A stretch of 64,000 nucleotides of DNA from Niabella sp. (GTDB lineage: Bacteria > Bacteroidota > Bacteroidia > Chitinophagales > Chitinophagaceae): contig JAGIAQ010000005.1 of the NCBI GenBank assembly GCA_017744795.1, positions 3,969 through 67,968 on the forward strand. Reading direction: 5' to 3'. Positions 22,982 to 35,035 of the stretch are shown here, piece by piece; position 1 is the first letter of the stretch, and each line of letters starts with the position of its first letter. Position numbers and translations under genes: made by a program. The notes beneath the pieces were generated by a model that worked only from the letters and a program-made list of their open reading frames with translations, was not told where the DNA came from and searched no databases.

Positions 22982-23205
22982 GCACGTCATACGGCCGGCG
23001 AGGCTTAGCCCAGGCAATTCTGCAATAAGAGCACGTCATCCCGAACGAGCCGGACCCTGCCCAACCAATTCTACAATAAGGACGCGTCATCTCGACGAGG
23101 AGGGCCGCGCCCGACGAGGAGAGATCTCCTGCTAAAAAAAACGTACTGCAACTTAGTTTCACTGCTACGAGAACGAGATTCCTCGCTTCGCTCGGAATGA
23201 CGGTT
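22982..23205 (+). repeat. Tandem ~50-bp units forming the left copy of a large inverted repeat
   Basis: Three related units begin at about 22982 (GCACGTCATacgg), 23031 (GCACGTCATcccg) and 23083 (CGCGTCATctcg), the first two ending in 'AATTCTrCAATAAG'. From 23031 to 23205 the sequence is nearly the reverse complement of 30568-30747 (e.g. 'CGTCATCTCGACGAGGAGGG'). It is a dispersed intergenic element; shorter relatives lie at 26476 and 27727. Spacers are not unique sequences of CRISPR size, so it is not a CRISPR array. Confidence 0.75.
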
Positions 23206-23229
23206 TCATAAGACTACCACCCACAAAAG

Positions 23230-23410
23230 AAGCGTGGGTTGGTCCTTACCGTGTTAAAGGGCTACGACACCCCGAATCCGAATAAGAACGCCCACGCTTG
23301 TATCTTTAAATATATACCATATAAATTAAAGAAAGCATGAGCGATTTACCTTAATCTCGGATTCTTAAAAGGTCGTAGTTTTTAACACGAGAATAAAAGC
23401 AAATGCGCTT
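23230..23410. repeat. Pair of inverted, related structured elements
   Basis: Element A (23230-23299) is closed by a perfect 9-bp stem AAGCGTGGG/CCCACGCTT. Element B (23333-23410) is its diverged inverted copy: reading A in reverse complement and B forward, both contain CGGATTC, GTCGTAG and TTAACACG in that order with 5-7 and 3-4 bp between. The layout recalls paired REP/BIME or MITE-type elements, but an RNA gene is possible. The flanking 23206-23607 otherwise holds nothing recognisable. Confidence 0.6.
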
Positions 23411-23607
23411 GTTGCGATATAAGCATTGCTGAAATATTTTTGATTATGTGCTATTATAAAACATAAAATAATAGGTTAGAGTTAACTTATGTATAGAAAA
23501 ACAGTACTAAAGTATGGATAAACTTTTAATCAACCAAATAAAAGTATATTTTTTTTATCTTTCTCTGCGTTTCTTCCGAATAGATGTATAGAAAAACCTA
23601 ATAATCA

Positions 23608-23869: not shown

Positions 23870-24526
23870 CTACAAGTTGTCTATTTTTTTTGGTTCCAAT
23901 TTTTTATATTCACCAATCATGAAATCATAAAACGATGAAATTATATAAACCACGATCAATAAGAAATTTAAAAGAAAATATAGCGTTATTATTTTATATA
24001 GATTTGTAACAATCCCTCTAATTGTTAAAGGAATATCAATCAAATTTAAATTGAATTCAAATCTTATTTCAGCGATATCGAAAGAGCAATAATTAGTCAA
24101 TAAATTTAACGCTAAAAGTAAAATACAAAGTAGAGCAATCAAAGTTTCATACAGGGTGAGAACTGTTATTTTTTTAAAAAAGTTTATCAACCGTCTATTT
24201 ATGTTAGCTCTTTCTCTAGATTGTCTTGCTCCCTGAAGTACGGCCTCGGTATTTTTAAATTTATCGTAAAGTGCTATTAGAAACGTGAATAGCAATCCGA
24301 TAAACAATGATAAGGCACTTATAATGTAACCACAAAAATTTTCGGAAAAGCTTTTTTGGAAAATAATCGTCATTGATATAGCAATAAAGAGGATCACCCA
24401 TTGCTTTTTTGTAAAATAGAACTTTGGTTTGTTTTTTTCATTTTCTTCCTTCTTGGCACCAATCTCCTTGTACTGATACTCATGAGCTTGATTTATTAAT
24501 TCACGTATATTGCCATTAAAGTTCAT
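23870..24526 (-). CDS. Four-TM membrane protein of an orphan gene pair, function unknown
   Basis: A 218-residue protein with a charged N-terminal ~45 residues followed by four hydrophobic helices: 'WVILFIAISMTIIF', 'YIISALSLFIGLLFTFLIAL', 'TLIALLCILLLALNLL' and 'IITLYFLLNFLLIVVYIIS'. There is no signal peptide or known domain. It overlaps the upstream partner (24516) by 11 bp, so the pair is translationally coupled. A soluble protein coupled to a small multi-TM protein next to an HTH gene is a layout seen in several antiphage systems with membrane effectors; this is inference, as no homologue is recognised. Confidence 0.75.
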   Translation of the reverse strand: MNFNGNIRELINQAHEYQYKEIGAKKEENEKNKPKFYFTKKQWVILFIAISMTIIFQKSFSENFCGYIISALSLFIGLLFTFLIALYDKFKNTEAVLQGARQSRERANINRRLINFFKKITVLTLYETLIALLCILLLALNLLTNYCSFDIAEIRFEFNLNLIDIPLTIRGIVTNLYKIITLYFLLNFLLIVVYIISSFYDFMIGEYKKLEPKKIDNL

Positions 24527-25525
24527 CTAATTGGTTTTTTTCCTCAATTTCGGCTAAAATCTCTTTTAGCACTCTTGCGCAAACGTTTTTTACCTGATCA
24601 AAATTTGGAACGCCTGACTTTTCATTTAATTCTACGCCTTCATTTTTTAAGAATATGGTTGGCCGAATACTTGATATTTGCTCATTAATGTCAAAGTGGG
24701 CTTGACCTTCGTTATTTTTAATAAATACTTTTGCCTTTTCGCCAAGGGGTTTATCCTCAAATTTCTTTTTACCAAGTATTTTTGAAAGGGCGCTTATATT
24801 TTTGCCTTCTGGCTTAACTTTTCCACTTGAAGAGATAGGCTCAATGCTCAAAGTAACCTTAAATCCTTCAATTGAAGAATCAATCTCACTTCTAAGATTG
24901 TTGCCAATTCCTACGATCTGTTTATATTTAAACATAACGAGGTTGGACGTTTCTGTAAACTCCTTAACAACACGATCAGGTACGTAATTGTTAAACACGA
25001 GATCAAAGTAATAATCAGGGCAACTAAACATTTTCTTTATTAGTTCTTTAAAAGGTTGTTGAACTGTTTCCTCCGTATAAGACTGAATTAATAGAACTCC
25101 CCTGAAGCTATCTAATGGTGCATACAAGTAAAAATAATATTTATCCAATACTGCCTTTGTTGAGCTTATCGATTCTCTTTCTTTGTTGTTTTCAATATCT
25201 GCTAGTTGTTTTGTGATACCATATTTCCCTCCATCGATTGTACCTTCTATTATAAAAGAATCAATGTGCGATTTAATTGATGTATTAGGTACGCCATCGC
25301 GCATTTGTTGAATCCCTAGAACTTTTTGAGATTTTTTGTCGTTAACTAATGCAGCGCCGCCTAATGTTTTTAGAAAATCTTGGAAAAGTTGATTGAAAAG
25401 ATGATTGTCATCGGCTGTTCCTTCTGCCAAGAATTTTTTTCGCAAAAATGTCTAAAAGAGGGGTCTTCATCAGTCGCGGGGCGTAATTCTATCAAATAAG
25501 CATTTAATATTGGGTTTAATGGCAT
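24516..25525 (-). pseudogene. Orphan cytosolic protein, reading frame broken near its start (frameshift)
   Basis: The ORF track gives 309 residues from a TTG at 25445. A better start is the ATG at 25525 ('MPLNPILNAYLIELRPATDE'), but it is in another frame. The two frames meet at a run of seven A, and a -1 shift there (A-AAA-AAT is a plausible slippery site) yields one protein of ~335 residues running from '...DPSFRHFCEK' into 'FLAEGTADDNHLFNQLF'. It is therefore a mutation, a sequencing error or programmed frameshifting. No membrane segment; segments 'SFIIEGTIDGGKYGITKQ' and 'FYLYAPLDSFRGVLLIQSY' look conserved-type but unassigned. It is coupled to the 4-TM gene downstream. Confidence 0.65.
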
Positions 25526-27845: not shown

Positions 27846-28700
27846 ATGAAAAAAGACAAAACACAACAAGCATTATCAGTGTTTGAACAAATTAAGCACA
27901 CGGATGAAAACGGCAATGAATTTTGGATGGCGAGGCAGCTTGCCAAAACACTTGATTATACTGATTTTAGAAATTTTTCCGGCGTAATTGAAAAGGCCTG
28001 GGAGGCCTGTAAAAACAGCGGGCATAACCCTTTAGAACACATCGTTGAAACCAACGAGGTGTTAATTGCCGGGCAGGGAGCAAAACAAACTTACTCAAGC
28101 TATAAACTATCCCGTTATGCCTGTTATTTAATTGTACAAAATGCAGATCCGTCCAAAGAAGTAGTGGCACTTGGCCAAAGTTATTTTGCCGTACAAACAA
28201 GATTGCAGGAAATAACGCAGATGGAAGCCTATAACCGCCTTAGCACCGAAGATGAAAAAAGGCTTTTTCTGCGTAATGAAATGACTAAGCACAATATCCA
28301 TTTAGCTGCTGCCGCCAAAAATGCCGGAGTAATAACTTCTCTTGACTATGCCATTTTCCAAAATCATGGTTATATGGGTTTGTACGGGGGGCTTGATGCT
28401 AAAGGCATACATAAGAGAAAAGGGCTTGCGAAAAGCCAGCAAATACTTGACCATATGGGAAGTACCGAACTGGCTGCCAATTTGTTTCGTGCCACGCAAA
28501 CAGAAGAAAAGTTGCGAAAGGAAAACATTCAAGGTAAGCCAAAGGCCAACCAAACTCATTTAGAGGTAGGCAAAAAAGTACGCCAAACTATTAAAGAACT
28601 TGGAGGAACCATGCCTGAAAACCTGCCTACGGCCAGCAGCATTAAAAAACTGGAAACAGCGGCTAAACCAAAACAATTAAAACCCAAGCGGAAAAACTAG
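27846..28700 (+). CDS. dinD: DNA damage-inducible protein DinD-like, copy 1
   Basis: 284 residues with the DinD/BRO-N-type start 'VFEQIKHTDENGNEFWMARQLAKTLDYTDFRNF'-like region (FWxARxLxxxLxYxxxxNF), 'SYKLSRYACYLIVQNADPSK' and 'LGQSYFAVQTRLQEI', ending in a KilA-C/DinD tail. In E. coli DinD is SOS-induced and inhibits RecA strand exchange. Here the role is inferred from homology; no LexA-like box is recognised. It is one of two tandem paralogues, separated by 75 bp, each preceded by the same 27-bp leader. The basic tail ('KPKQLKPKRKN') suggests nucleic-acid contact. Confidence 0.9.
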   Translation: MKKDKTQQALSVFEQIKHTDENGNEFWMARQLAKTLDYTDFRNFSGVIEKAWEACKNSGHNPLEHIVETNEVLIAGQGAKQTYSSYKLSRYACYLIVQNADPSKEVVALGQSYFAVQTRLQEITQMEAYNRLSTEDEKRLFLRNEMTKHNIHLAAAAKNAGVITSLDYAIFQNHGYMGLYGGLDAKGIHKRKGLAKSQQILDHMGSTELAANLFRATQTEEKLRKENIQGKPKANQTHLEVGKKVRQTIKELGGTMPENLPTASSIKKLETAAKPKQLKPKRKN

Positions 28701-28775: not shown

Positions 28776-29618
28776 ATGAAAAAAGAATTGATCACCGAAT
28801 TATTACAAAAATTTGAAGCTGCCTGTTATGAAATAAAGGGCGTGGAATGCTGGAGCGCCCGGGAGCTGCAACCCATTTTGGGCTATAGCCGCTGGGAAAA
28901 CTTTTCTAATGCGCTGGATAAAGCACGTAAATCCTGCGAAGCCGCCGGGGAAACGGTGACGGACCATTTTCGTGATGTCACGAAAATGGTCATATTGGGA
29001 AGTGGATCTCAACGCGAAGTTCAGGATATTGCCCTTACACGTTACGCCTGCTACCTGGTAGCGCAGAACGGCGATCCGGCCAAACCGGCCATTGCTTTTG
29101 CACAAACTTATTTTGCGGTGCAAACCCGCAAGCAGGAAATTATTGAACAGCGCCTGCTGGAAGTAGCAAGGGTATCGGCCCGGGAAAAACTGACAAAATC
29201 GGAGAAAAAGCTGTCGGGCATTATTTACGAACGCGGGGTGGATGAGCAAAGTTTTGCGCTGATTCGCTCCAAGGGAGACCGGGCATTGTTTGGCGGCTTT
29301 AGCACGGCGGATATGAAAAAGAAACTGAGCGTGCCTGCTAATAGAGCCCTGGCAGATTTTTTGCCTACGCTTACCATAAAGGCCAAGGATTTTGCTACGG
29401 AGCTAACCAGTCATAACGTAGTGGAAAAAGACCTGAAAGGCAGCCAGCAAATATCAAAAGAACATGTAGACAATAATAAAGCGGTAAGGGATATGCTTAA
29501 TGAGCGGGGCGTACAACCGGAAACATTGCCCCCGGCGGAAGACATAGCCAAACTGAAACGAAAGCTGGATGGCGATGCAAAAAAGATATTGAAGGATACC
29601 CGGAAAAAAAACATTTAG
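28776..29618 (+). CDS. dinD: DNA damage-inducible protein DinD-like, copy 2
   Basis: 280 residues. The N-terminal module 'ECWSARELQPILGYSRWENF', then 'ALTRYACYLVAQNGDPAK' and 'IAFAQTYFAVQTRKQEI', and the C-terminal 'SKEHVDNNKAVRDMLNERGVQPE' are all DinD-like; this copy is closer to the E. coli protein than copy 1 in the last motif. The two paralogues differ substantially along the protein while their leaders are identical, so this is an old duplication or two separately acquired genes. Its stop codon lies in a sequence (ATTTAGGAATCAAT) repeated at ~26650. Confidence 0.92.
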   Translation: MKKELITELLQKFEAACYEIKGVECWSARELQPILGYSRWENFSNALDKARKSCEAAGETVTDHFRDVTKMVILGSGSQREVQDIALTRYACYLVAQNGDPAKPAIAFAQTYFAVQTRKQEIIEQRLLEVARVSAREKLTKSEKKLSGIIYERGVDEQSFALIRSKGDRALFGGFSTADMKKKLSVPANRALADFLPTLTIKAKDFATELTSHNVVEKDLKGSQQISKEHVDNNKAVRDMLNERGVQPETLPPAEDIAKLKRKLDGDAKKILKDTRKKNI

Positions 29619-33500: not shown

Positions 33501-35035
33501 GATTTTATATTTTTTCTGCGTTCTGTACAAGGAGTGCGGTCCTGCTGGCCGGGTGTCGGCAGTTCCACCCAGTTAAAACCATCTTTTTTTATCAGTTGCG
33601 CTGCTTTTTTGGGGCCGCAGCTTCCGGCGGTATATTTCTCCAAACCTTTTTTCCCATCTTTCGCCCATTGGTTCAAAATAGGCATTACAAGGGTCCAGGC
33701 GGTTTCTACCTGGTCGGCGCGCATAAACTGTGCAGCATCGCCTTCCAACGCGTCTAACAAAAGCGTTTCGTATGCTTCCGGTGGCTGTTCGGCAAAGGAT
33801 TCTTTATAAGTAAAATCCATTTCCACCGGCTTTAGTTTCATATAGGGACCGGGTACTTTTCCTTCAAACAATAATAAAATTTCCTGCTCCGGCTGAATAC
33901 TGATGAGCAGCTGGTTGGAGGTTACATCATCTTTAAAAATTTTATGCGGCGAATCTTTAAAGCTGACTACAATAAGCGAGGATTGTTTGTTCAGGCATTT
34001 ACCGGTTTGTAAATAAAAGGGAACACCCTTCCAGCGCGGATTATCGATAAAGAACCGCGCTGCCACATAGGTTTCAGTGGTCGAGTTTCTGGCGATATTA
34101 TCTTCCTCCAGGTACCCCCGCTGCGGCTGGCCATTTATTTCCCCGGCGGTATACTGCCCGCGCACCACGTCTTCGGCAATGGTTTTGGGTGTAAACGGGC
34201 GCACACTTTTTAAAACTTTCACCTTTTCATTGCGAATGTCTTCTGCACCCAACCCGATCGGGCTTTCCATAGCTACTACAGAAAGCAGCTGCAGCAAATG
34301 GTTCTGGATCATATCGCGCAGCGCGCCGGCTTTATCGTAATAGCCACCGCGGGCGCCCACGCTTACCTCTTCGGCTACGGTTATCTGTATATTTTCGATA
34401 AAGTGGTAATTCCACAGCGGTTCAAAAATATAATTGGCAAAACGAAAGGCCAGCAGGTTTTGTACCACTTCCTTACCCAGGTAATGATCAATGCGGCAGA
34501 TCTGTTTTTCTTTAAAATTACTTTCCAGCAATCTGTTCAAAGCCTTTGCTGAAGCGAGGTCTGAGCCAAAAGGTTTTTCTACAATGATGCGGTCTTTGTT
34601 GGCCTGGGGCGCCAGTTTGTATTTGGAAAGGGAAGTGGAAATAGTCTCGATAAACCGTGGCGCCACAGAATAATAAAACAGCCGGGTAGCCCGTGTGCCC
34701 CAATCTTTGTCGTTTTGACCTAAAATGGTTTTTAGCCGGGAATAGATATCGGCCTGGGTAAAATCACCCTGCACAAAATGCAGTTTTTTTATAAACTGCT
34801 TCCATTGTTTCGGATCGGCTTTTCCGCTTCTTGAAAAATTATTAATGCCCTCCAGCATATGTTTATAAAAAGCGGTCTCGGGAAGGTCCTGGTAATCTAC
34901 CGCATAAATAACAAATTGCTGCGGCATATACCCGTAAATAAAAAGATTGTAAAAGGCCGGGATCAACTTGCGCCAGGCCAGATCCCCCGAACCGCCAAAA
35001 ATGATAATATTGGCGGGCGTTTTTTTGAAATCCAT
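33497..35035 (-). CDS. zwf: Glucose-6-phosphate 1-dehydrogenase
   Basis: Oxidises glucose 6-phosphate with NADP to 6-phosphogluconolactone. The nucleotide-binding start '[21 protein letters not shown]' and the substrate-binding '[16 protein letters not shown]' with catalytic His are present, as are '[19 protein letters not shown]' features. 512 residues is normal. It overlaps pgl by 4 bp. gnd lies upstream on the same strand with a 200-bp repeat-containing gap, so the three probably act as one pathway unit, perhaps with a separate zwf promoter. Confidence 0.97.

Follow-up and report, generated by a model that had tools for sequence, protein, structure and literature searches.

Do two inverted elements in a Niabella genome represent copies of a mobile repeat, or are they parts of a single structure? 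The elements, A and B, lie at positions 23,230 to 23,410 of a 64,000-nucleotide stretch of Niabella sp. (family Chitinophagaceae, contig JAGIAQ010000005.1), referred to here as the window. An earlier note, made from the letters of this stretch, described them as sharing three sequence blocks and proposed a repetitive extragenic palindrome (REP), bacterial interspersed mosaic element (BIME) or miniature inverted-repeat transposable element (MITE), with a structured RNA as the alternative. Exactly two matches to the three-block pattern are present in the window, at 23250-23280 on the minus strand and at 23358-23389 on the plus strand, compared to 0.00 occurrences expected in shuffled windows, and the perfect 9-bp stem ascribed to element A is present. 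On the sequence evidence, the two elements belong to one minus-strand RNA, with A as its 3' arm and B as its 5' arm, and are not mobile-repeat copies. This RNA is approximately 170 to 190 nt long and reads, from 5' to 3', arm B, a short linker, arm A and a U-run (Table 1). Its true 5' end probably lies about 15 to 20 nt beyond the extent of the covariance model, at plus-strand positions 23412-23430. Element B had been described as lacking a strong stem, which holds for the plus strand (folding z-score of -0.5); on the minus strand, a long AU-rich stem is strong (z-score of -3.4).

Compensated pairing between the arms

Within each locus, the blocks of arm A are the reverse complement of those of arm B, and the blocks differ between loci. 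At locus L012, for example, TTCCTAAG replaces the GTCGTAG of the window and is changed on both sides. The picture of conserved inner blocks within a variable stem is thereby reversed in related loci: it is the blocks that vary, with compensation, and the outer stems whose sequence is conserved. The junction blocks are the most variable parts of the RNA, and its conserved bases lie mostly in the outer strands.

The three inter-arm helices, H1, H2 and H3, average 8.6, 7.3 and 7.9 bp. When arms were swapped between loci, same-locus pairing in H1 to H3 equaled -13.9, -11.4 and -12.6 kcal/mol, in contrast to -5.9, -9.0 and -5.9 kcal/mol for mismatched arms. This is 9 to 15 standard deviations past permutations, and control combinations had little or no effect. 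Among the five copies of the source genome, cognate arms pair at -33 to -40 kcal/mol and non-cognate arms at only -7 to -20 kcal/mol. In addition, the inner stem AGGN/N'CCU is seen with all four Watson-Crick pairs.

The inter-arm pairs comprise 833 Watson-Crick, 21 G.U and 6 A.C pairs, four of the last in chance extensions. This bias of G.U over A.C indicates that the RNA is made from the minus strand. Together with the covariation, a promoter box and a U-run terminator, strand-specific G.U pairing bears out the structured RNA alternative, and a structured RNA with inter-arm pairing can be regarded as close to certain. A plus-strand transcript reading into the neighboring helix-turn-helix (HTH) gene was dropped, since the minus strand is favored by folding and G.U bias as well as by the promoter box and the U-run. 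A tRNA-like fold was also dropped, as there is no Rfam match.

Two mutually exclusive registers

The arms can pair in two registers, for which statistics were calculated from 69 distinct members and compared with 500 shuffles and slid controls. Pairing reaches 93% in the two-hairpin register, where both partners have changed at 23 of 34 pairs, and 81% in the long-hairpin register, where this is so at 37 of 56 pairs. Neither register was equaled by any of the 500 shuffles or by any slid control. Since the model that produced the alignment was one of the two-hairpin register, these counts lean toward that register; the arm-swap test is independent of the alignment. The outer stem of arm A is 97.5% paired and covarying in the alignment of homologues, and the terminator hairpin reaches folding z-scores of -3.9 and -5.1 in two genomes.

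The alternative hairpin P3, 94% paired and covarying in distant members, competes with both outer stems for the same bases: CGCUCACG has two partners, either the 5' strand of arm B or, in P3, CGUGGGCG of arm A. The registers thus exclude each other at the arm bases, giving either two hairpins, the second of which is an intrinsic terminator, or one long hairpin that sequesters the terminator strand. Because both registers covary and share the arm-end bases, the element seems built to be bistable. Folding predicts the long hairpin as the minimum for 73 of 85 members, and its mean arm-arm energy is -56.5, compared to -47.5 for the two hairpins. The stems of the two hairpins and helices H1 to H3 occupy separate columns, such that they could coexist. 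In this combined structure, which has a paranemic crossover (PX) topology, 87% of cells are paired, 43 of 56 pairs are doubly changed, and doubly changed cells number 466, compared to 174 in shuffles.

Just past the U-run lies P5, an imperfect second complement of the terminator 3' strand, positioned directly ahead of the start codon of the downstream gene. Across 106 loci, its pairing energy is -15.0 when matched and -12.1 when mismatched (standard deviation of the mean, 0.28). A hairpin upstream of the arms, P0, was discarded, as the probable start site falls within it and its statistical support is weak. A second exact copy of the terminator strand, CGCCCACGCTT, is found at 34354-34364 without the remainder of the element.

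Distribution in the Bacteroidota

The earlier note regarded the absence of further copies as fatal to its proposal; five copies are present in the source genome and many in its relatives. The three-block pattern, searched in 101 related genomes, recovered only one further genome. It belongs to the same genus and has the complete A-linker-B arrangement among other neighboring genes; elsewhere the blocks are altered, including at loci retrieved via the neighboring HTH protein, where the arrangement is the same. A scan for one constant-region pattern across 84,980 species genomes yielded 28 loci, in organisms including Niastella, Chitinophaga, Niabella, Terrimonas, Puia and similar genera of the Chitinophagaceae; two of the loci belong to a cultivated strain, Chitinophaga eiseniae DSM 22224. 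With a first covariance model, built from 36 members, 145 of 399 family genomes were found to carry homologues, as were a dozen more of the order outside the family. A second model, which adds divergent members, matched 74 of 295 genomes of the class Bacteroidia, with 1 to 8 copies per carrier, and 18 of 198 genomes in a sample of the phylum that partly overlaps the genomes already counted.

Rfam release 15 (4227 models, including Flavo-1, 6S-Flavo and Bacteroidales-1) gave no match over the RNA at the gathering threshold, and a permissive search gave no credible weak match over it, tRNAs elsewhere being the sole matches. No copies were found on plasmids and phages by blastn, nor on viral contigs by two constant-region patterns, and searches of open-licence papers found no previous description of the RNA.

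Promoter, terminator and gene context

Table 1 Features of the RNA and its surroundings in the window
Feature	Position	Strand	Basis or content
Structured RNA	23224-23411	minus	covariance-model extent; second-model match, 141 bits, E 5e-27
Element B, 5' arm core	23358-23389	minus	three-block match, arm-swap pairing, covariation
H1b (read on plus)	23382-23389		TTAACACG
H2b (read on plus)	23373-23379		GTCGTAG
H3b (read on plus)	23358-23364		CGGATTC
Element A, 3' arm core	23250-23280	minus	three-block match, covariation; inner stem GGG/CCC
H3a	23274-23280		CGGATTC
H2a (apical)	23262-23268		GTCGTAG
H1a	23250-23257		TTAACACG
Intrinsic terminator hairpin, arm A outer stem	23230-23299	minus	perfect 9-bp stem, AAGCGTGGG (23230-23238) with CCCACGCTT (23291-23299)
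U-run after terminator stem	23225-23228	minus	at least 4 U in 100/106 loci
P3, alternative (antiterminator-type) hairpin	23289-23343	minus	CGCUCAUGCUU (23333-23343) with AAGCGUGGGCG (23289-23299), linker hairpin inside
AT-rich linker with own small hairpin	23304-23331		only 4-6 nt in many homologues
P5 partner	23209-23224	minus	imperfect complement of terminator 3' strand
RNA promoter region	23412-23460	minus	own TAnnTTTG box weak
Candidate operator, first copy of ATGTATAGAAAAAC, between RNA and HTH gene	23489-23502	plus	exact repeat; function putative
Candidate operator, second copy of ATGTATAGAAAAAC, adjoining HTH start	23584-23597	plus	exact repeat; function putative
Divergent Cro/C1-type HTH gene (HTH_26), 73 aa	23608-23829	plus	Pfam E 5e-10
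Nearest plausible co-directional downstream gene, 203 aa	22336-22947	minus	REP-like palindromes intervene

The motif TAnnTTTG, the sigma-A box in flavobacteria (PMC9723704), occurs upstream of the RNA in 59 of 106 loci, compared to 4 on the opposite strand and 6.9 in shuffles. A divergent small gene adjoins the RNA in 79 of 93 loci, with a median spacer of 175 bp. Most of these neighbors group into several subfamilies of small HTH proteins, and the divergent HTH arrangement recurs in a second family of the class. Of 20 examined proteins encoded behind the HTH gene, 9 carry restriction-modification domains, and others SIR2 or PAPS-reductase domains. On the other side, a promoter box is present in only 1 of 54 gaps between the RNA and the downstream gene. 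Few downstream genes could be assigned by Pfam or NCBIfam, and the 203-aa protein of the window has no match in either.

Several further observations concern this neighborhood. REP-like palindromic stretches (CGTCATCCCGAACGAG ... CTCGGAATGACGG) occupy 22990-23205, between the RNA and the downstream gene, and a relative (locus L008) has the same stretch in the same place. In many genomes, a recurrent Chitinophagaceae protein family lies directly 3' of the RNA (loci L092 and L026 and an 18-member cluster), some members having a C-terminal HEPN domain. In other families, DNA methyltransferase genes resembling type III restriction-modification Mod come immediately after the RNA (L125 by Pfam, L153 by eye). 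In the window, a 309-aa protein (24516-25445) with a weak match to Rep3_C, the winged helix of initiator Rep proteins, belongs to a minus-strand gene pair facing the HTH gene. Adjacent paralogous proteins are encoded at 27846-28700 and 28776-29618, which we take to resemble DinD/BRO-type DNA-damage-inducible proteins.

A candidate transcription attenuator

What, then, would such an RNA do? An intrinsic terminator with its U-run (100 of 106 loci) stands ahead of a co-directional gene (86 of 92 loci, median gap of 59 nt), and a conserved antiterminator pairing, P3, excludes both outer stems. Judging from these features, we propose, with a probability of roughly one half, that the RNA is a bistable two-state transcription attenuator in the leader of the neighboring gene. 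When the B hairpin forms, arm A would fold as the intrinsic terminator and the transcript would end. When instead the third strand pairs back to the second (P3), the terminator strand would be sequestered, allowing the polymerase to continue into the co-directional gene, which typically lies some 60 nt further on. The balance between the states would be set by the fast-changing, locus-specific blocks of H1 to H3, whose divergence may also prevent cross-pairing among copies in the same genome. The shared promoter region is probably under the control of the divergent HTH protein.

Several points weigh against this proposal. The downstream genes span about 30 unrelated families, a diversity not expected of a single cis-acting switch, and the gene calls behind them are mechanical picks of open reading frames, not curated. 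For f75, a different family of the same class, 3' gaps of 130 to 370 nt are usual, and in the window itself about 278 nt separate the RNA from the downstream gene, which lies beyond the REP-like palindromes. Furthermore, the long hairpin might itself end in the U-run, which makes the sign of the switch uncertain.

Part of the same evidence would also suit an independent small RNA gene that acts in trans, has a promoter and terminator of its own and is controlled by the divergent HTH protein, the downstream gene being a bystander. The promoter box in over half of the loci, the strong terminator in nearly all, the regular divergent HTH gene at about 175 bp, recurring in a second family, and the copies without a close downstream gene all fit this possibility. 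We nevertheless think it somewhat unlikely, given that the downstream genes are so consistently co-directional, mostly near and nearly all without a promoter box of their own, that the P5 complement sits past the terminator, and that almost all bases are paired, leaving no conserved single-stranded seed. The combined structure, in turn, hints at a stable architectural RNA, in which inner stems and inter-arm helices form simultaneously in a PX-like fold that acts as a scaffold for protein binding or dimerization, with no switch. Its stems and helices lie in different columns and are as well compensated as described above, and an inner stem of about 4 bp plus an inter-arm helix of about 7 bp would give about 11 bp, one A-form turn. 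However, P3 covaries as well and is incompatible with the outer stems, and pseudoknot-free energy models favor the long hairpin, which renders a purely architectural role improbable. It is doubtful, if less so, that the RNA adopts a natural PX fold and still switches: its arms would be zipped by the three inter-arm helices with the inner stems kept, the blocks would act as locus barcodes permitting self-recognition only, and the whole would form a switchable module before accessory and defence genes across the Bacteroidia.

Readings at the DNA level fare worse. An inverted operator, recombination or cruciform site bound by a protein would account for the nested inverted repeats, the highly conserved P3 core (CTCACG...CGTGGGC) and the adjoining Cro/C1-type HTH gene, but the G.U/A.C asymmetry, the strand-specific promoter box and the U-run point to a single strand, compensatory and unconserved blocks are unlike protein sites, and the phage, plasmid and viral-contig searches gave no copies; we consider it very unlikely. 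The REP/BIME or MITE unit proposed in the earlier note, moved by a Y1 transposase (REP-associated tyrosine transposase, RAYT), retains hardly any credence. Several copies per genome and the presence of Y1 genes in the source genome would be expected from it. Nonetheless, the five copies are few and highly diverged and keep a fixed gene context, and of the four Y1 transposase matches in that genome, none carries the element or shares a contig with a copy. An IS110-type guide RNA (bridge RNA or seekRNA) was set aside, as no transposase lies beside the RNA in the neighborhoods examined (HTH, restriction-modification and various genes), no IS110-specific search having been made.

Relation to known RNAs and significance

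The proposed attenuator resembles leaders of the trp type in its consecutive strands, each able to pair with either neighbor, and in the intrinsic terminator shortly before the gene. It differs from them in having no apparent leader peptide or ligand site, in switching strands that carry three locus-specific covarying blocks, and in its mutually unrelated downstream genes. RNAI and RNAII of ColE1 are kissing-loop RNAs. As in that pair, the 7-nt apical loops are fully complementary and vary by copy, such that only cognates pair; here, in contrast, a single transcript supplies both partners as its two arms, and two extra helices join internal loops. With PX RNA, the predicted fold shares the alternation of intra-arm stems of about 4 bp with inter-arm helices of 7 to 9 bp; PX RNA has been described as a designed motif, with an example in CASP15 that has no natural homologues (PMC10376919, PMC10168427). 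The ornate RNAs OLE, ROOL and GOLLD are likewise bacterial RNAs with multiple covarying loop-loop contacts, but they are large, homo-oligomeric and unrelated to this RNA, and the paper on ornate RNAs mentions no paranemic arrangement (PMC12286853). Flavo-1 and other candidates of unknown function (Weinberg 2010, PMC2864571) are also structured RNAs of the Bacteroidetes; unlike Flavo-1, the present RNA has no Rfam match.

The RNA is thus present in about a quarter of the sampled genomes of the class, in at most 8 copies each, yet lacks an Rfam entry. Its architecture is unusual, the arms being complementary both to themselves and to each other through fast-evolving, tightly compensated blocks. 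If the paranemic fold is true, it would be a natural example of a motif from RNA nanotechnology. If the RNA is an attenuator, it would represent a generic switch ahead of many unrelated accessory genes, its promoter region often being shared by an HTH regulator located ahead of restriction-modification or other defence genes.
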